From: an uncultured Olsenella sp.
GTDB taxonomy: Bacteria > Actinomycetota > Coriobacteriia > Coriobacteriales > Atopobiaceae
Length of the DNA: 60,510 bases
Direction of reading: 5' to 3'
Assembly (NCBI GenBank): GCA_900314495.1
Contig: OMVJ01000029.1
Location: forward strand, 1 to 60,510
This document shows positions 2,712 to 51,745 of the stretch, piece by piece. Position 1 is the stretch's first letter; each line of letters opens with the position of its first letter. The notes beneath the pieces are model-generated. The model was not told the DNA's origin and did not search any database. It saw only the letters and a program-made list of their open reading frames with translations. The translations under genes were made by a program, and so were the position numbers.

Positions 2712-2773
2712 GAGACAGGGGGACGGTCCTTTTGTCTCATTTGAGCGAGATACCAGAACCGTCCCCGCGTCTC
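2712..2773. repeat. 27-bp palindromic repeat, inverted pair
   Basis: Two 27-bp units, 2712-2738 and 2747-2773. Each starts GAGA and ends TCTC; the first carries GGGGGACGGTCC and the second, in opposite orientation, GAACCGTCCCC. A partial extra TGAGACAGGGG lies at 2701-2711. The pair fills the space between the convergent yfcE and lipoprotein genes. Confidence 0.85.
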
Positions 2774-5424: not shown

Positions 5425-5482
5425 GAGACAAAAGGTGCGTCCCCGTGTCTCACGTGAGACGCGAGAACCGTCCCCGTGTCTC
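5425..5482. repeat. Two 27-bp repeat units in tandem
   Basis: Units at 5425-5451 (core GGTGCGTCCCC) and 5456-5482 (core GAACCGTCCCC), same orientation, separated by ACGT. On the minus strand the far edge continues into TGAGAC, whose TGA is the iorB stop. Confidence 0.85.
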
Positions 5483-6126: not shown

Positions 6127-7875
6127 CTACGCCTCCTTGATGCAACCGAACGGGCAGACCTGCACGCACTGGCCACAGCCGATGCACTGCGTGGGGTCGA
6201 TGACCGCATGGCCCGTCTCGTCCTTGCCAAGGGCCGGGCAGCCGATCTGGATGCACTGGCCGCAGCGACGGCACTGCTCGATGGAGGGCATGGGCTTCTT
6301 GGAGCGGTCCACCAGGCGGCAGGGCGCCTTGAAGATGATGACGGAGAGCCGGAGCGCACCTCCTTGAGGTTCTGCGCGTCCGCCTGGATTATCTCGTCCA
6401 CGCCGATGGCCTGGCACAGGGCCACGAGGTCCAGCGGCTTGCCGGCCGGGCGGTCTAGGATGGAGGGCTTGTCCGCGGGGTCCGTGAGCGGCGAGACGCG
6501 CTTGCCCTGCTCGGAGAGGGTGATGCCGTTCACGGGGTTGCCCTGCGTGCCCGTCATGGCCGTGGTGCGGTTGTCCAAGATGCAGAGGGTGCCCTTGCCG
6601 CCGTTGTAGGCGGTGCCCAAGAGGCTCGTGATGCCGGAGTGCGCGAAGGTGGAGTCGCCGATGACGCCCACAACTGGGCGGCCGGTGCGTTCCTGGGCCT
6701 GGGCCAGCTCCATGCCGTGGCTCATGCTGAGCGAGGCGCCCATGTCGATGACGGAATCCACGGACTTGTAGGGCGCGACGGCACCCAGCGTGTAACAGCC
6801 GATGTCACCGGTGACTATCGCCTTTATGCGACGAAGCTCGCAGAAGACAAGCCTGTGCGGGCAGCCGGCGCAGAACGCGGGCGGGCGCGGCGGCAGGCCC
6901 TGAGCGGCATCGAAGTGCTCCGGCAGGGGCGCGCCGAAGCTGGCCTTGATCTGCCAGGGGAAGATCTCTCCAGAGCGAGGCAGGGGCTGGGCGGGCGGCT
7001 CGCTGAGCCGGATACCCAGGGCGGCTACGTGGTCGCGGAAGTAGAGGCAGGCCTCCTCAACCACGTAGACCTTGTCCACCTTGGAGGCAAAGTCCGCCAG
7101 CGCGCGCGGCGGCAGCGGCCAGGAAAGGCCCAGCTTGTATGTGGAGGCGTCGGGCAGTGCCTCGCGCACGTGGTTGTAGAGCGCGCCGGCCACGATGATG
7201 CCGACCTTGGTGTCGCGGTACTCGGCGCGGTTGAGGTCCGTGGTTTCCGCGTACTCGACCAGCGCGTCCTCGCGGGCGTTGGTCACGTTGGTGCGAGCCA
7301 CGGCGTAGGCGGGCATCATCACGTACTTGTTGGGCTGGCTGGTGTAGTCGCGGGCGGCAAGCTCCGCGCGGGCGTTGGCAACCTGGACCATGGTCTTGGT
7401 GTGGGCGATGCGCATGGTCTCGTGCAGCATGACGGGCGTGTCGAACTGCTCGGAGAGCTCGAAGGCGCGCTGGGAGAACTCGTAGGCCTCCTGGGAGTCC
7501 GCACGCGAAGGCCGCGTAGTTGCGGGAGTCCTGCTCGTTCTGGCTGGAATACATGGACGGGTCGTCTGCCACCAAGAGCACCAGGCCTGCATTGATACCG
7601 GTGTTGGCCACACTCATGTACGGGTCCGCCGCCACGTTCAGACCCACGTGCTTCATGGTCACCAGCGTGCGGACGCCGCCCATGGCGGAGCCAATGCCCA
7701 CCTCAAGGGCGACCTTCTCGTTGGGGGACCACTCGCAGTACACGTCCTCGTGGTGGACCAGGTTCTCGAGCGTCTCCGTCGACGGCGTGCCGGGGTAGCC
7801 GGTGCCGATCTTCACTCCGGCCTCCCATGCGCCCTGCGCTATGGCCTCGTTGCCGGAAAGCAGCTGTTTGCTCAC
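6127..7875 (-). pseudogene. iorA: Indolepyruvate:ferredoxin oxidoreductase, alpha subunit, two frameshifting lesions
   Basis: Starts GTG at 7875 (GGGAGGG site) with MSKQLLSGNEAIAQG. The frame runs through the pyrimidine domain to RNYAAFA near 7500, then breaks; the correct sequence resumes one frame over at DSQEAYEFSQ. A segment expected there (a motif like ARxPMLEP) is missing, about 20 bp by inference. The second frame covers the TPP domain (GDIGCYTLG, GDSTFAHSGI) to NLKEV near 6360, breaks again, and resumes as SVIIFKAPCRL with the two 4Fe-4S motifs CRRCGQC and CIGCGQC. All domains are present but not in one frame. Either a pseudogene or two assembly errors. Confidence 0.85.
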
Positions 7876-7889
7876 GTTTCCCTCCCTAT

Positions 7890-7916
7890 GAGACAGGGGG
7901 ACGCACCTTTTGTCTC
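7890..7916. repeat. 27-bp repeat unit
   Basis: GAGAC start, core GGGGGACGCACC, TTTTGTCTC end. Lies 15 bp upstream of the iorA start codon. Confidence 0.85.
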
Positions 7917-8036: not shown

Positions 8037-8063
8037 GAGACAAGGGGACGCACCTTTTGTCTC
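8037..8063. repeat. 27-bp repeat unit, left flank of RAYT
   Basis: GAGAC, core GGGGACGCACC, TTTTGTCTC. Opposite in orientation to the unit at 9114-9140 on the other side of the RAYT gene. Confidence 0.85.
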
Positions 8064-8256
8064 ATTTCTCAGCGGTCTCCGCGCCAACCCGACTTGTGTC
8101 GCCCCGCAGAGCAGGGGATTCTCTGTCCACCGTTATATGCATGCAAGTTTTCTGCGTGCTGGCGGGGCTCGGATTTCAGCCACCTTGGGTACGCCGTGCC
8201 ATTCCAGGCGCACCATGTGCCCACCCATTCGACCGGTCCAAAACAGGGAGGGCATC

Positions 8257-9030
8257 ATGACCAGACTGTCAAGAAAGTGCAGCTCAAGCAACATTTACCA
8301 CGTGATGGCAAGGGGCGTGGGCAGGCTGATCATCTTTGAGGACGAGGCGGACCGCAGCAAGTACGTCCGTACCCTGGCTCGGTTCAGCAAGGCCTGCGCC
8401 GTCGAAGTCCTGGCCTGGTGCCTGATGGAAAACCATGTCCACCTGTTGCTTCACGGTGATTTGTCCGCCATTCAAGACCTTATGAAGAGGCTGGGCGACA
8501 GCTACGTTGCCTATTACAACGCCCACCACGACCGCGTTGGCCACCTGTTCCAGGGCCGTTTTGCAAGCGAGCCCGTTGAGGACGACACCTACCTCATGAC
8601 GGTCGTGCGGTACATCCACCTCAATCCGGTTGTGGGAGGGCTGAGTCCCAGCCCCTCTTACGCGTGGAGCAGCTACAACGATTACGTGCATCCCCACGCG
8701 CACATGCTCACGCGCACCGAGTTCGTGACCTCGGTCTTTGGCGGGGCCAATGCCTTCGTGCGCTTTCACCAGGACGCAGACGGCGCGGCAGAATCGGCTT
8801 GCATGGATATAGACACTTGCTGCAAGAGGGTCACCGATGGCGAGGCAATTGACATCGCCCGAAAGGCCATGCGGGACCTCGCGCTTGCCGACCATGACCC
8901 AGCGACCATTGCCGCGCTTGACCGCCGGCAACGCGATTCCGTCTTGCGGCACCTACGCAATTCGGGGCTATCGGTGAGGCAGGTTGCTCGCATCACGGGA
9001 ATTGGGCGGAACATCGTTGCGCGGGCGTGA
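8257..9030 (+). CDS. REP-associated tyrosine transposase (RAYT, Y1 family)
   Basis: 257 residues from ATG 8257 (GGGAGGGCATC site). Y1 transposase domain of the RAYT (TnpA_REP) type: the family N-terminal block YHVMARG (14-20), the HUH metal-binding motif HVH at residues 60-62 in ENHVHLLL, the catalytic Tyr among Y83/Y86/Y87 in SYVAYYN, and the family block GHLFQGRF then YIHLNPV. A C-terminal HTH-like segment (LSVRQVARITGIGR) follows. RAYTs are single-strand nucleases thought to spread REP/REPIN palindromes in trans; they are normally single-copy. Here inverted copies of the 27-bp repeat flank the gene at 8037 and 9114, which fits that role. No IS200/605 tnpB or second IS gene adjoins it. Confidence 0.9.
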   Translation: MTRLSRKCSSSNIYHVMARGVGRLIIFEDEADRSKYVRTLARFSKACAVEVLAWCLMENHVHLLLHGDLSAIQDLMKRLGDSYVAYYNAHHDRVGHLFQGRFASEPVEDDTYLMTVVRYIHLNPVVGGLSPSPSYAWSSYNDYVHPHAHMLTRTEFVTSVFGGANAFVRFHQDADGAAESACMDIDTCCKRVTDGEAIDIARKAMRDLALADHDPATIAALDRRQRDSVLRHLRNSGLSVRQVARITGIGRNIVARA

Positions 9031-9113
9031 CGGCAGGGCAGCGGCAAGATCAGCCGCCCGCATGAAAAAGGGAGGCCGACGCGTGCGCCGACCCCCTGAC
9101 TACTCATTCATAT

Positions 9114-9140
9114 GAGACAAAAGGTGCGTCCCCCTGTCTC
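9114..9140. repeat. 27-bp repeat unit, right flank of RAYT
   Basis: GAGACAAAAGGTGCG...CTGTCTC; inverted relative to 8037-8063. A further partial TGTCTCA follows at 9146-9152 and supplies the stop of the next minus-strand gene. Confidence 0.85.
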
Positions 9141-10811: not shown

Positions 10812-10897
10812 GATGGGTCCTCTCACGTGTGGGCCGCGCTGTTCCCGCGCGGCGGCCTAGCAAGCATAGCATGACAAAGGGGGACGTTTCCCCTGAT

Positions 10898-10963
10898 GAG
10901 ACAGGGGGCCGGTTCTCGCGTCTCATTGTGCGCAATGAGACGCGAGAACCGGCCCCCTGTCTC
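10898..10963. repeat. REPIN-like perfect inverted pair of 27-bp repeats
   Basis: Unit 10898-10924 (core GGGGGCCGGTTCTC) and its exact reverse complement 10937-10963, separated by the self-complementary spacer ATTGTGCGCAAT: a 66-bp perfect palindrome. A half unit resembling the ACGTTTCCC variant lies at 10873-10892. The AraC stop codon (10962-10964) overlaps its right edge. Confidence 0.9.
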
Positions 10964-14713: not shown

Positions 14714-16129
14714 ATGGCAGATAACAAGCAGCTCGGAGCTGACATCCTGGCCGCAGTCGGCGGCAAGGAGAACGTCTCCAACCTCGCCCACTGCATGACG
14801 CGCCTGCGCTTTACGCTCAAGGACGAGTCCAAGGCCAACGACGAGCAGGTCAAGGGCACCGACGGCGTGCTGGGCCTGGCCAAGACCGGCGGCCAGTACC
14901 AGGTCATCATTGGCCCCAAGGTTCCCGAGGTCTACAGCGCCATCGTCTCGCTCGGCGTAGCCGCCGGCGGCTCCGTGGACGAGGACCTCTCCGCCGAGGA
15001 TAAGCCCAAGGGCAAGCTCACCCCCAAGAAGGTCGGCGAGAACATCCTCAACTTCCTCTCCGGCTCCGTAGTCCCGCTGATTCCCGTCCTGATTACCGGC
15101 GCCCTGTTCAAGACGGTCATCTCCGTCTTCGGCTCCACGATGCTCGGCCTCGTCGCCGACGATTCCGCCTTCGCTTTCGTCTGCAACCAGGTCTACAACG
15201 CCGCCTTCTACTTCCTGCCGATCATCGCCGGCGTCTCCGCCGCCAAGTACCTGAAGGCCAACCCCTTCCTCGGCGCGCTGATGGGCGCCATCCTCATCGA
15301 GCCCAACTTCGTCGCCCTCTCCTCCGCCACCGAGCAGACCATGGCCTACAGCGTCTACGGCATTCCCGCGCCAACGCTTGGCTATGCCAACACCCTGATC
15401 CCGTCCCTGCTCAGCGTCTGGGCCATGAGCTACGTTGAGAAGTTCTTCAACAAGCACCTGCCCGAGCAGATCCGCACCGTCTTCGCGCCCTTCTTCACCT
15501 TCGTCGTCATGCTGCCCGTCTCCCTCTGCGCCCTGGCCCCGCTCGGCAACTACATGGGCACCGGCCTGGCCACCTTCCTCGAGTGGCTCGGCAGCACCCC
15601 GCTCGGCTTCCTGGCTGTCACCCTCATCGCAGCTACCTGGCCCATCCTTGTCATGACCGGCATGCACGTCGGCCTCGCCGCCATCGCTCTTGCCCAGTTC
15701 GCCCAGACCGGCCAGGACACCATGGTCCTCATGGCAGCCAACATTCAGAACTTCGTTGCCACCGGCGTCGCGCTGGCCGTCTGGCTGCGCCTGAAGGAGC
15801 CCAAGCAGAAGAACCTCGCCCTCGGCTACTTCATCACCCAGTTCATCGGCGGCGTTGGCGAGCCCCTGCTCTACGGCGTGTTCCTGCGCTACAAGCGCCC
15901 CTGGATTGGCTCCATCGCCGGCGGCGCTGCGGCTGGCCTCTACGGCGCGCTGACCCGCACCGTCCTCTACGCTCCCACCACCGGCATCTTCGCGACCCTT
16001 GGCTTCGCGGGCGGCTCCTCGATGAACTTCGTCAACGGCATCATCGGCACCGTGCTCGGCGTGGTCGTTGCCTTCGTCGTCACCTGGTTCTTCGGCCTCT
16101 CCAAGGACGCCATCGAAGGCAAGATGTAG
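14714..16129 (+). CDS. PTS sugar permease, EIIBC (glucose/sucrose superfamily)
   Basis: 471 residues, GGGGAG site. Residues 1-90 are an EIIB domain with the phosphorylated Cys27 in HCMTRLRF; residues 105-465 are the polytopic EIIC domain with GVGEPLLYGV in place of the usual GITEPAIYGV. It lacks an EIIA domain, so phosphate must come from an EIIA encoded elsewhere. It imports and phosphorylates a glycoside or disaccharide. Position right after the GH78 gene suggests a rhamnoside-related or glucosidic substrate, but specificity cannot be read from sequence. Confidence 0.92.
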   Translation: MADNKQLGADILAAVGGKENVSNLAHCMTRLRFTLKDESKANDEQVKGTDGVLGLAKTGGQYQVIIGPKVPEVYSAIVSLGVAAGGSVDEDLSAEDKPKGKLTPKKVGENILNFLSGSVVPLIPVLITGALFKTVISVFGSTMLGLVADDSAFAFVCNQVYNAAFYFLPIIAGVSAAKYLKANPFLGALMGAILIEPNFVALSSATEQTMAYSVYGIPAPTLGYANTLIPSLLSVWAMSYVEKFFNKHLPEQIRTVFAPFFTFVVMLPVSLCALAPLGNYMGTGLATFLEWLGSTPLGFLAVTLIAATWPILVMTGMHVGLAAIALAQFAQTGQDTMVLMAANIQNFVATGVALAVWLRLKEPKQKNLALGYFITQFIGGVGEPLLYGVFLRYKRPWIGSIAGGAAAGLYGALTRTVLYAPTTGIFATLGFAGGSSMNFVNGIIGTVLGVVVAFVVTWFFGLSKDAIEGKM

Positions 16130-16157
16130 GACAAAGGGGACGTTTCCCTTCTGACAC
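16130..16157. repeat. Variant short palindromic repeat (ACGTTTCCC type)
   Basis: GACAAAGGGGACGTTTCCC...TGACAC, directly after the PTS stop codon. Shares the GGGGACG core with the 27-bp family but has GACA/TGACAC ends. Confidence 0.65.
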
Positions 16158-16174
16158 ACTAGCCCCCCTTGCTT

Positions 16175-20215: not shown

Positions 20216-20246
20216 GTGTCAAAAGGGGACGTTTCCCTTCTGTCAC
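20216..20246. repeat. Variant palindromic repeat (ACGTTTCCC type)
   Basis: GTGTCAAAAGGGGACG...CTTCTGTCAC after the ABM gene, preceded by a partial GTGTCAAAAGGG copy. Confidence 0.65.
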
Positions 20247-20269
20247 GCTTCCAAGCTGGCCCCTAGTAC

Positions 20270-22337: not shown

Positions 22338-22364
22338 GAGACAGGGGGACGCACCTTTTGTCTC
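22338..22364. repeat. 27-bp repeat unit
   Basis: GAGAC, core GGGGGACGCACC, TTTTGTCTC. Confidence 0.85.
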
Positions 22365-25546: not shown

Positions 25547-26434
25547 TTATTCAAATGAGACAAAAGGTGCGTCCCCCTGTCTCATGGGGCTGCTCTGGCG
25601 GTAGGCGCGCGGGCTCTGGCCCACCATCTTAGTGAACCGGTATGAGAAGTTGCTCTCGCTGGAAAAGCCCACTTCGCGCGCAATCTGCGCCACGGGCTCA
25701 TCCGTCTCGGCCAAGAGCTCGCGTGCCTTCGTTATGCGGTAGCGCAGCAGGTAGTTGTAAGGCGACGTGCCCATCTGCCTCTTGAACAGCCGCATGAGGT
25801 AGGAGCTGCTCACATTGGCGGCCCCGGCCAGGTCGTCCACGGTGATGTCCTCGGCATAGCGCTCCTCCACCACGCGCATGGCGCGCTCCACGGGCTCTGC
25901 TTCTGCACCTTGCAGCGCACTTTCCGCAAGCTCCAGCGCCATGGCAGAGAGCAGCTCGTGAACTGCAAGACCGGTGCGAAGCGTTGATGGCACGCTTTCG
26001 CGTTGCACGTTGCTCTCAATTTCCTGGAAGCACTTTCGCGCAAAACTCTCATGCAGCTGCACGGGAGCCAACGTTGGCAGGCCCATCAGCTGCCCAATTG
26101 CCGCAACCCCCGCGCCATCCACGTGCGCCCACAGGTGGTCCCAGCGCGCAGAATCCAGCGCCGTGCCATAGCTCTGCGGCGACCGGCAGTCCATGAGCAG
26201 GGCCTGCCCCTTCTCCAACCGCACCTCCTGCCCGCCCTGCCGCACCAAGCCCGCGCCGTGCAGCGTGTAGAACACGATGAACGAGTTCTTGTTGGACCTA
26301 GCTGTTGTGAATCCGCGCAGCGCATAAAAGCAGCCAACTTCGGTGCAGTAGTAAGGCTGCACCAGCTCCTGTGGGCTGGGCGTTGACCGCAGCCAGGTGC
26401 TGTTTTTCTCCACGTCCAAATTGTATTGGAGCAC
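25547..26434 (-). CDS. AraC-family regulator of the rhamnose operon, repeat-encoded tail
   Basis: 295 residues from GTG 26434 (GGGGGTGAG site). N-terminal cupin-like sugar-sensing domain (LHGAGLVRQGGQEVRLEKG) and C-terminal double HTH (DLAGAANVSSSYLMRLFKRQ and IAREVGFSSESNFSYRFTKM). Divergent from rhaB, so a RhaS-like activator is likely. The last dozen residues, MRQGDAPFVSFE, are translated from the 27-bp repeat inserted at the 3' end; the natural end was probably near YRQSSP. Candidate binding sites GGTGCAA lie at 26478, 26527 and 26569. Confidence 0.9.
   Translation of the reverse strand: MLQYNLDVEKNSTWLRSTPSPQELVQPYYCTEVGCFYALRGFTTARSNKNSFIVFYTLHGAGLVRQGGQEVRLEKGQALLMDCRSPQSYGTALDSARWDHLWAHVDGAGVAAIGQLMGLPTLAPVQLHESFARKCFQEIESNVQRESVPSTLRTGLAVHELLSAMALELAESALQGAEAEPVERAMRVVEERYAEDITVDDLAGAANVSSSYLMRLFKRQMGTSPYNYLLRYRITKARELLAETDEPVAQIAREVGFSSESNFSYRFTKMVGQSPRAYRQSSPMRQGDAPFVSFE
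25557..25583. repeat. 27-bp repeat unit inside the AraC 3' end
   Basis: GAGACAAAAGGTGCG...CTGTCTC; read in frame by the AraC gene on the opposite strand. Confidence 0.85.
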
Positions 26435-30443: not shown

Positions 30444-30474
30444 GTGTCAATGGGGGACGTTTCCCTTCTGACAC
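30444..30474. repeat. Variant palindromic repeat (ACGTTTCCC type)
   Basis: GTGTCAATGGGGGACG...TTCTGACAC directly after rhaD. Confidence 0.65.
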
Positions 30475-30492
30475 AAACCTAGCTCAGCCGCT

Positions 30493-30539: not shown

Positions 30540-30568
30540 TGACAAAAGAGAAACGTCCCCTTTTGTCA
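30540..30568. repeat. Variant palindromic repeat (ACGTTTCCC type, inverted)
   Basis: TGACAAAAGAGAAACG...TTTTGTCA, 3 bp beyond the metA stop, opposite in orientation to 30444-30474; with it the unit pair encloses the terminator. Confidence 0.65.
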
Positions 30569-30571
30569 CGG

Positions 30572-31537
30572 CTAGAACTTGTCGATCTCCTCGTCGGTGT
30601 CCGCGCGGAGCTTCTCAATCTCCTCCGGGATGCGCGTGCGGTCGTACGGCGTCATCTGGTACACCCAGTTGAGCCAGTTGCGGTACAGCAGGTTTGCGTG
30701 CGCGCGCCAGGTGAAGATGGGCTGGTTCTCCGGGTCGTCGTCCGGGAAGTAGTTCTCCGGAAGGTGGATGGGCAGGCCGGCGTGCATGTCACGCCAGAAC
30801 TCGTCCGCCAGGGTGTCTCGGCCGTACTCAAAGTGACCGGTCACGTAGATCTCGTGGAAGTCGCGCGTGGCAATGAGCGCCGGGCCGCTGGTGAAGCCCT
30901 CAGAAAGAACGTGCAGCTCAGGGTGGTTGGCCAGCTCGCTCACCTCAATGGCGGCGTGGCGCGAGTGCGGCATGTAGTGCACCTCGTCAAAGCCGTTGGT
31001 GAGGAAGTTGTACTCGTCGCACAGGCGCTGCGGGAACACGCCGAAGAGCTTCTGCCCCAGCGGCTTCTTGGGAATCTGGTACAGGTGCCACAGGCCAGCG
31101 AGCGCGCCCCAGCACAGGAACATGGTCGAGAACACGTGCGTCTGCGACCAATCAACAATTTCGCAGAACTCGTCCCAATAATCCACGGAATCGAACTCCA
31201 GGTGCTCCACGGGCGCGCCGGTGATGATCATGCCGTCGTAGAACTCGTCCTTGAGCTCGTCGAACGTCTGGTAGAACTTGACCAGGTGGTCCTCCGAGAC
31301 GTGCGTGGAGGTGTGGCTGCTCACGCGCATGAAGTCGCAGGTCACCTGCAGGGGCGACTTGGAGATGAGACGCAGAATCTGCGTCTCCGTCTCGATCTTC
31401 TTCGGCATGAGGTTGAGAATCACCACGTGCAGGGGGCGGATCTGCTGGCGCGTTGCCGCCTCTTCCTCCAGCGCGAAGATGCGCTCTCGGTGCAGTATTG
31501 TCTTCGCGGGAAGCCCGTCGGGAATGTTGATTGGCAT
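30572..31537 (-). CDS. metA: Homoserine O-acyltransferase (acetyl-type predicted)
   Basis: 321 residues from ATG 31537 (AGGAG site). MetA family: HVVILNLMPKKIETE, catalytic Cys in FLCWGA, GHFEYGRDTLADE with catalytic Glu and His. The acyl-donor loop is ITGAPVE: in published Bacillus cereus work a Glu at this position favours acetyl-CoA and a Gly (as in E. coli) succinyl-CoA, so this enzyme should be an O-acetyltransferase. First committed step of methionine synthesis. The leader contains hairpins but no recognised riboswitch. Confidence 0.92.
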   Translation of the reverse strand: MPINIPDGLPAKTILHRERIFALEEEAATRQQIRPLHVVILNLMPKKIETETQILRLISKSPLQVTCDFMRVSSHTSTHVSEDHLVKFYQTFDELKDEFYDGMIITGAPVEHLEFDSVDYWDEFCEIVDWSQTHVFSTMFLCWGALAGLWHLYQIPKKPLGQKLFGVFPQRLCDEYNFLTNGFDEVHYMPHSRHAAIEVSELANHPELHVLSEGFTSGPALIATRDFHEIYVTGHFEYGRDTLADEFWRDMHAGLPIHLPENYFPDDDPENQPIFTWRAHANLLYRNWLNWVYQMTPYDRTRIPEEIEKLRADTDEEIDKF

Positions 31538-46225: not shown

Positions 46226-46287
46226 GAGACAGGGGGACGCACCTTTTGTCTCATTCACATGAGACAAAAGGTGCGTCCCCCTGTCTC
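46226..46287. repeat. REPIN-like inverted pair of 27-bp repeats
   Basis: 46226-46252 and its exact reverse complement 46261-46287, separated by ATTCACAT. Lies between two same-strand genes, just upstream of the hypothetical gene's ribosome site. Confidence 0.9.
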
Positions 46288-49106: not shown

Positions 49107-49133
49107 GAGACAGGAGAACCGTCCCCGCGTCTC
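49107..49133. repeat. 27-bp repeat unit
   Basis: GAGACAGGAGAACCG...CGCGTCTC, with a partial CGCGTCTCA after it, just past the RHH gene stop. Confidence 0.8.
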
Positions 49134-49961: not shown

Positions 49962-50024
49962 GAGACAAATGGTGCGTCCCCCTGTCTCATTCACAATGAG
50001 ACGCGAGAACCGGCCCCCTGTCTC
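49962..50024. repeat. Two 27-bp repeat units
   Basis: 49962-49988 (GGTGCGTCCCC core) and 49998-50024 (GAACCGGCCCCC core), same orientation. The second encodes the last residues of the membrane-protein pseudogene. Confidence 0.85.
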
Positions 50025-51725
50025 ACGCACAGGGCCAGGAGCACGGGGCCCAGCCAAATGAGCGGCAGGGCGTAGCGCGTCAGGTCCGCCGGGGATGCCA
50101 GGAGCACAACAATCTGCAGCGCCAACGGCAGGAACGCCAGCTTGTAGCGGGACCTCGTTGCCACCGCCACGCACCAGGCCAGCGCCGGGATGCACCACAC
50201 GTAAAGCGCCATCTGGTACAGCATCCACGCGAAGGGAGCGGAAGCGGCGTTTCTGTGCATCTGCAGCGCGGCCTCGCGCGCACCGGCAAGCGACTCGGGC
50301 TCCGAGATGTGCAGCTTGTACGACGCCAGGGGGTACACGTACGCCCGTGGGTACACGGAGACGACGCCGCCCCAGTCAAAATAGTTTGTGCAGGTGCCAA
50401 GGGTGGCCGCAAGGTACGTGCCAGGCCGGCGCAAGCCCATGGCAAGCCACGCGCGCGCGTAGCGCTCAAGATCCGCCCGCGTGCAGGTGTCCCAGCGGTA
50501 GGTGTACTTCACGCGATCGATGTTGCGCGACTTGTACCCCAGGGCAATGGAGTCGTAGTCAATCACAGCATCAATGGCCTCGCGCTCGTCATCCGTCACC
50601 TCGTCACCGTGGTACTTGACGAACCGCGCGGTCTGCGTAATGAGAGGACCCAGGGACTCCTGCACGCCACCGGGGGCAACGTCCAGCGCGGGGTAGGCGA
50701 CCAGTGGGATGACCGCGAACATGGTGACAGCCGCCGCGACGCCAGGAGCCAGCAGCAAAGACAACCGCATCAATGAGCACCAGGTAGATGCAAGTTTTCT
50801 TGGTAAGTGCCAGCAGCACGCCGAGCACGATGCTGGCAGCAAGGTTGCGTCTGCCGTGGCGTTCTTTCGCGTAAATCTCCCCGTGGGTACGCACCGTCTC
50901 TAGCAGCAGGATTGCATAGGGAGGCATGAGGGTGAGATGCAGTGCATCTTTGAGCATGCTGAAGGCATAGATGGGATAGAAGGGCATGGCACAGAAGTAG
51001 ACGAAGGCCGCAAGCCGCGCGCCATTCGGCACGCCGAGCTTGCCCACATATGCAAGCAAGCAGACCATACCCGCCGCCGTCGCAGCCATCTGCAAGACCG
51101 AGAACAGAAAGATGCCGGGATTGCATGAGCCTGTCAGCAGGTCGCTCCCCCGCGCGAAAAGGCCGTAGACCAGCGTGTCGAAAATGGGGTGGTGGTCCGT
51201 GAACTGGTGATTGGGGTTCTCCACCGGCATGCTGGAAACCGGCAGGTGACCGGGGTAGTTCTGGTTGATCATGCTGTAGGTGTCCAGCCCGAAGCGGCCG
51301 GGATACAGCGCGATGGCATACGGCAGCCAGCAAAGCAGCATGATGCCAGCGAACGTCAAGACGGAGCGACGCGTCAGCTGCGGGCAAGGACGGCGCCTGC
51401 CCTGTGCACGCTTGTGGCCAGCCAGGTGCAAGCCCGCAGCAGGAGTCGCGCCATCATCGGGCCGCTCGCGCAAGCGCAGTGCCAGCCAGGTGCATGCCAG
51501 CAGCAAGGCAAAACCCGCCGCCCACGCGATGCCGCCCACGCGCAGAAAGTTTGCCACGGTCGCAGGCAGGAGCTCGTTCTGGACTATGTCCCCGTACGCA
51601 TAGAAAGCGGCGCCGACGAACGAAAGGACAGCCGCGCTGGCAAGAAGGGGGCCGCGCGCGACGGAACCGCAAGCGCACGCACCACTCGCGCGCGCCTGTT
51701 GCCCCGCCTCAGCTTGATGAGACAC
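49991..51725 (-). pseudogene. Polytopic membrane protein (DUF6020/GT39-like), frameshifted
   Basis: The first frame covers an N-terminal part with several helices and the block YPGRFGLDTYSMINQNYPG then FTDHHPIFDTLVYGLF, which recalls polyprenyl-linked glycosyltransferases of the C fold or DUF6020. At about 50750, after LIDAVVFAAG, the frame changes; the rest continues as LLAPGVAAAVTMFAVIPLV to CVRQGAGSRVSL. Both parts make one about 570-residue protein, with a short deletion at the join. The start (GTG 51725) and the terminal SRVSL both lie in repeat units, so the natural ends are uncertain. Likely part of the adjoining glycan cluster. Confidence 0.65.
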
Positions 51726-51745
51726 TAGGTGCGTCCCCCTGTCTC
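51719..51745. repeat. 27-bp repeat unit
   Basis: GAGACACTAGGTGCG...CTGTCTC, between the broken membrane gene and the GlfT2-like gene; TAG stop of the latter is directly followed by TGAGAC. Confidence 0.85.

Follow-up and report, generated by a model that had tools for sequence, protein, structure and literature searches.

RAYTs accompanied by abundant REPs were reported from gammaproteobacteria only (PMC2817692). Binding and cutting of a single strand of the folded REP is known for the RAYTs of E. coli, Stenotrophomonas and Marinomonas (PMC8266576). Among the TnpAY1 transposases, a Y---NP motif is the mark of class 2, and subclass 2.1, the second largest TnpAY1 subclass, has no REP-like sequence reported in its flanks and is probably equivalent to the TIRYTs described in PMC3733652 (PMC6006769). 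The TIRs of those transposases carry a GGGGWSAS motif, and some are self-complementary and dispersed, with no obvious correlation with the transposase genes; the TIRYTs were judged less productive (PMC3733652). In a stretch of 60,510 nucleotides from an uncultured Olsenella sp., analysed as a whole and referred to here as the window, we found a RAYT gene lying among dispersed palindromes (Table 1). With a probability of about 75%, we believe that gene and palindromes make up a RAYT/REP system belonging to the branch of subclass 2.1 (TIRYT), with repeat families driven by the RAYT, which we infer to be responsible for their movement. We take TIRYT/subclass 2.1, presumably together with group 1 of Bertels, to be the closest known system.

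The RAYT protein contains a Y1_Tnp domain (Pfam E=1.2e-12) with the motifs N59-H60-V61-H62 (NHVH) and Y119-I-H-L-N123-P124 (Y---NP), and residues H60, H62, Y119, N123 and P124 are near-invariant across 110 relatives. When the predicted structure (a 51-sequence model with mean pLDDT 92) was compared with the PDB, the closest entry was 4er8, the E. coli RAYT with its REP hairpin (Z 17.5, rmsd 2.7, 161 aligned), followed by IS608 (Z 10.9), and sequence comparison likewise gave 4er8 as the top match. These results agree with the preliminary description of the window, made from the sequence alone, which had recognized a RAYT-type Y1/HUH transposase with HVH at 60-62; its placement of the catalytic tyrosine at about 83-87, on the other hand, is rejected. 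The catalytic residue is most likely Y119 in YIHLNP, because it is invariant in the 110 relatives and part of the class-2 Y---NP motif; Y83 is conserved too. The best NCBIfam match, to the REP-associated tyrosine transposase NF047646, scores 52.8 bits against a curated cut-off of 80, so that ‘RAYT’ here denotes the wider class 2 rather than that equivalog. The VIA rows hardly reach beyond residue 189. Five helices of the predicted model lie within 194-256, where an HTH_23 match at 222-256 is weak (E=0.0085, below cut-off) and relatives reach 2e-6. The gene is single-copy in the genome, its one paralogue being 37% identical, and the nearest RAYT is 49% identical.

Judged by motifs and length, rather than by a tree with the reference set of PMC6006769, the RAYT would fall with TnpAY1 subclass 2.1 (TIRYT). 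Its 257 aa are near the 238 aa of that subclass and include a C-terminal HTH-like domain, NHVH and Y---NP stand in the Y1_Tnp domain, and the inverted flanks are of the GGGG[AT][CG]A[CG] type, with a motif, GGGGACGC, one base from the published consensus. The likeness to TIRYT/TIRtron systems (PMC3733652, PMC6006769) thus covers NHVH with YIHLNP, a length of ~250 aa and an HTH_23-like C-terminus; both kinds of system also have a GGGG[AT][CG]-type motif in their inverted flanks, and both form dimers and dispersed copies. With E. coli TnpAREP (subclass 2.2, 4er8) and the Pseudomonas REPIN-RAYT system (PMC3116915), the locus has in common the predicted fold, the HUH motif with its tyrosine and a gene between inverted palindromes, but the window RAYT carries an extra C-terminal domain of ~70 aa. 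The system is therefore not of the Pseudomonas and E. coli type to which it had been likened: motifs and length put the protein with subclass 2.1, whose RAYTs have such an HTH-like domain, and a GTAG foot is missing from its repeats.

The inverted copies on both sides of the RAYT gene belong to a 27-nt imperfect palindrome, GAGACAGGGGGACGCACCTTTTGTCTC, which we call the type A REP, with outer stem GAGACA/TGTCTC and core GGGGACGCACC. Type B (GGGG[AC]CGGTTCTC) has its stem in common with type A. A search of the window for GAGAC...GTCTC returned 17 places, namely 11 type A repeats, five type B repeats and one unrelated match at 31367, rejected as a repeat and located inside a predicted gene; including degenerate copies and other cores, the window holds 11 type A, seven type B (two of them degenerate) and five type C repeats besides this chance match. 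The preliminary description had given the coordinates and orientations of the two flanking repeats exactly, and a further plus-strand copy lies upstream of them. Its 17 copies of one repeat stand as 17 places, but not as a single kind of sequence; the two degenerate type B copies and the five of type C lay outside that description. As folded ssDNA, the GGGG strand of type A is predicted to form an imperfect hairpin of 13 bp that includes G.T pairs (-6.7 kcal/mol, z=-4.6), and the opposite strand folds less well (-5.6 kcal/mol). Nearly all copies are followed by AT on the 3' side, and GAGAC is mostly preceded by [AG]T; a GTAG-type foot (a GT[AG]G tetranucleotide 5' of the hairpin) is absent.

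Table 1. RAYT gene and repeats located in the window (positions in nucleotides)
Feature	Position	Strand	Remark
RAYT gene, 257 aa, Y1/HUH transposase	8257..9030	+	H60-V-H62, Y119 in YIHLNP, C-terminal HTH-like helices 194-256
Type A REP, 5' flank of RAYT	8037..8063	+	one mismatch to consensus
Type A REP, 3' flank of RAYT, inverted	9114..9140	-	exact consensus
Type A REP, farther upstream of RAYT	7890..7916	+	exact consensus
REPIN-like pair A(+) ATTCACAT A(-), 62 bp	46226..46287	.	one long predicted hairpin, -40.4 kcal/mol (ssDNA with flanks)
Type A REP variant (GGGGACGGTCC)	2712..2738	+	
Type A REP, tandem with type B at 5456	5425..5451	-	
Type A REP, behind degenerate type B at ~22312	22338..22364	+	
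Type A REP, 3' end of predicted gene	25557..25583	-	
Type A REP, tandem with type B at 49998	49962..49988	-	
Type A REP variant	51719..51745	-	
Type B REP	5456..5482	-	
Inverted type B pair, 12-nt spacer	10898..10963	.	10898-10924 (+), 10937-10963 (-)
Type B REP	49107..49133	-	
Type B REP	49998..50024	-	
Type C repeat (GGGGACGTTTC core)	10872..10894	+	kind flanking second RAYT at G000:C50:15747
Type C repeat	16127..16160	+	
Type C repeat	20216..20249	+	
Type C repeat	30444..30477	+	
Type C repeat	30540..30568	-	

Across the whole genome (2.80 Mb in 65 contigs, 99% complete), the 27-mer with up to three mismatches occurs 117 times versus 0 for its control, and GAGAC-N17-GTCTC hairpins 159 times (57 per Mb) versus once for the reversed pattern, by which a chance origin of the repeats is rejected. 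A genome-wide enrichment of the repeat had been called for, and was found; the unusually high density that had been proposed holds for the window, where 16 real copies compared with 3.4 expected amount to ~4.7 times the genome mean in a stretch chosen by a reader who saw the density, but not for the genome, at only 57 per Mb. The general marks of REPs are all present: a short palindrome (27 nt), 117-159 copies, a mostly extragenic position and inversion around the RAYT. According to our home-made procedures for gene and flank calls, including a home-made gene finder, 69 of 77 REPs lie outside predicted genes, compared with ~83% of the sequence being coding. In 13 of 80 cases a TGA belonging to the repeat itself terminates the reading frame of the adjacent gene (0.35 expected), and REP termini that supply stop codons are known for GTAG REPs (PMC3733652).

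Repeat geometry was studied in a 457-kb sample made up of the window and 20 stretches selected around repeats, in which the 80 hairpins are arranged as 38 singlets, 18 doublets and two triplets (singlet/doublet ratio ~2.1). The nine close A-A pairs are without exception inverted, around an 8-nt spacer bounded by AT, and in eight of them the two mates are identical, compared with 15% if pairs were random (p=2e-6); a further nine pairs are in tandem, with the order B then A in eight. Paired copies show 0.67 mismatches to the type A consensus versus 1.4 in singlets (p=0.011). The inverted doublets are thus better conserved than singlets, as in the E. coli and Pseudomonas systems, which also resemble the present one in REP termini giving stop codons; unlike them, it has no GTAG foot, an 8-nt spacer instead of tens of nucleotides, and more singlets. 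What had been described as a REPIN-RAYT system in a coriobacterium is therefore upheld as a RAYT with a cognate dispersed palindrome, and as a REPIN system in part only, given nine inverted 8-nt pairs versus 38 singlets and nine tandem pairs among the 80 repeats.

We found RAYT homologues in 83 of the 140 genomes of the host family, with one to six per genome. The inverted flanks of the window's own RAYT (41 nt) score 33.5, compared with a control maximum of 32, and 65 of 71 RAYT loci of the family exceed 95% of mismatched-locus controls. For 80 distant loci, mostly from Bacillota with some from Bacteroidota and Actinomycetota, 68 lie above the 95% and 55 above the 99% control level. Flanks are hairpin-like in most loci tested, family and distant ones alike, around a GGGGAC-type core and with an outer stem that varies; since hairpin extraction with exact arms under-calls (upstream, sense 62 of 111 versus antisense 24, with shuffles at 8%), inverted-flank scores were used instead. 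The outer stems of the family flanks vary (GAGACA, GTGACA, GGGACA, CGTGCA and others), with a GGGGAC- or GGGACAG-like core in most; in L036, the sister of the window's RAYT in the tree, the GAGACA stem is in common and the core is different.

When three stem types were counted in all 140 genomes, leaving out the copies that flank RAYTs, genome-wide hairpin abundance was found to track the stem type beside the RAYT. Median counts in RAYT genomes with matching versus other flanks were 80 versus 3 for GAGAC (p=2e-5), 59 versus 21 for GTGAC (p=9e-4) and 41 versus 18 for GGGAC (p=7e-4), the last being the weakest row because the GGGAC control pattern is high in these genomes; off-diagonal medians were close to background. 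Averaging by genus left p=0.014, 0.044 and 0.021, respectively. Protein and repeat similarity correlate weakly (Mantel rho 0.24, reached by none of 500 permutations), the RAYT core and the C-terminal tail about equally so across genera (0.24 and 0.21). The RAYT/REP partnership itself is known, and the present loci extend the findings of PMC3733652 and disagree in scope with PMC2817692 and PMC6006769. Unlike the TIRYT/subclass 2.1 elements as published, those studied here, from Coriobacteriia and mainly Bacillota, are flanked by REP-like hairpins at the majority of loci; the present genome contains ~160 copies, and abundance tracks flank type.

The two sister species (G048 and G049), whose alignable genes are ~80-86% identical to those of the host, have no RAYT and only three and one hairpins, respectively, which is background. 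Between the same neighbours of the RAYT site, G048 has only ~110 bp and G049 an unrelated ORF, a comparison at the level of gene synteny, the intergenic DNA being too diverged for precise empty sites. A gain of RAYT and repeats in the host lineage is likelier than their loss in both sisters, because repeats outlive RAYTs elsewhere. In the related genus g34, five of eight genomes have a RAYT that is orthologous among them (84-100% identity), and with it 59-106 copies of the matching repeat; the three genomes without it still have 33-75 copies (with versus without, p=0.07). The expectation that repeats should be missing where the RAYT is missing is thus borne out by the two sister species, which have neither, and fails in g34, where repeats persist long after loss of the gene. 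Most of the four g34 repeat sites examined are common to the species, which suggests that transposition is slow, and one REPIN site varies with uncertain polarity.

Such shared sites bear on the alternative that survives best, although we consider it unlikely, namely that a domesticated RAYT has ceased to mobilise the repeats and instead binds them through its HTH and HUH parts as a regulatory or DNA-processing factor, the repeats being kept by vertical descent and host selection. Slow turnover in g34, a single-copy RAYT with dN/dS of ~0.1 among the g34 orthologues, and REPs that abut the 3' ends of genes, even lending them stop codons, would all suit such a role; against it, the absence of repeats from the sister species means that, since the split, ~150 copies have arisen in the host lineage or reached it from elsewhere, and these copies are near-identical, as are the mates within pairs. 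Considerably less probable still is that gene and palindromes are a plain IS200/IS605-like insertion sequence, with the dispersed repeats as its deletion remnants. The palindromic inverted ends and the HUH/Y1 core recall IS200/IS605 TnpA (IS608, ISDra2), which likewise have end hairpins, and the element is absent from the orthologous G048 site. However, the multiple near-identical full copies expected of IS200/IS605 were not found in the genome, which has one copy and a 37% identical paralogue with different ends, relatives mostly have one to six divergent copies, and the fixed 8-nt spacer of the inverted pairs is unlike random remnants; the RAYT differs from those TnpA proteins also by Y---NP instead of Y---Q and by its extra C-terminal domain. 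Ordinary host hairpins (terminators or RNA stabilisers) among which the RAYT merely happens to lie would fit the intergenic position, often just behind stop codons, but were already disfavoured and are the least credible reading, given that flank type predicts abundance for three stem types, that about nine tenths of tested RAYT loci have inverted flanks and that the repeats are missing from the sister species.

The RAYT/REP system of the subclass 2.1 branch is supported directly by the inverted flanks, the dispersal, the pair geometry, the match between flank type and abundance, the absence from the sisters and the predicted E. coli RAYT-like fold. In such a system, the single-copy HUH/Y1 nuclease would most likely bind one strand of its cognate hairpin as folded ssDNA and cleave beside the hairpin by Y119, a strand specificity that we infer because the E. 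coli, Stenotrophomonas and Marinomonas RAYTs act in this way. Cleavage would lead to single hairpins and inverted pairs being copied or moved, mobilisation by the RAYT and distinct roles for its domains being presumed, and new copies would end up mainly between genes, often right behind stop codons. The RAYT gene between its two inverted hairpins may be seen as resembling a REPIN with the gene as spacer, and the shared GGGGAC core would be the obvious candidate for replacing the GTAG guide.

A tentative extension, which we hold to be possible rather than probable, is that a third REP superfamily, in addition to GTAG and CGTC, is driven by RAYTs with an HTH in Bacillota, Bacteroidota and Actinomycetota. 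It would be built on a two-part code, in which the GGGGAC-type core is common to all and an outer stem that varies pairs each RAYT with its own repeats. Were this so, earlier surveys would have missed it through searching for a GTAG foot. Should most subclass 2.1 members have cognate families of hairpins, to which these loci point, RAYT/REP pairing would extend far beyond the GTAG systems, and the host family, whose genomes carry as many as six divergent RAYTs along with different stems, would be a natural test bed for RAYT-REP co-evolution and recognition. For annotation, many palindromes of the GAGACA or GTGACA type that lie behind genes in these bacteria and otherwise carry no label would be explained.

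Two more type B copies in the window are degenerate (~2755 and ~22312). No RAYT flanked by type B was found in the genome, and a search for a third RAYT was negative at E<=0.01; the type B core is like that of many Bacillota loci, so type B may be a relic of a lost RAYT. Some minor features of the neighbourhood and of the g34 sites were also noted. The iorA-like gene beside the RAYT (6136-7875, minus strand) is broken into three pieces by changes of frame near 7503 and 6354 when set against the intact 599-aa orthologue in G049, and appears to be either a pseudogene or an assembly error. The ORF in the G049 gap (L065:511-1359, 282 aa) resembles, by eye, a PD-(D/E)XK/Rpn-type transposase-associated protein. 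At one shared g34 site (L304:7475-7530 and its orthologues), the inner part of the hairpin changes from GGGACAGTCCC to GGGAGTTTCCC between species and the stem is still self-complementary. The second RAYT of the genome, the 37% identical paralogue, has a different flanking palindrome, type C, with 20 dispersed copies in the 457 kb. Chimeric repeats at L155:16612, L162:6875 and L173:7620 join a GAGAC 5' arm to the type C core GACGTTTC, as if the two repeat families had recombined.
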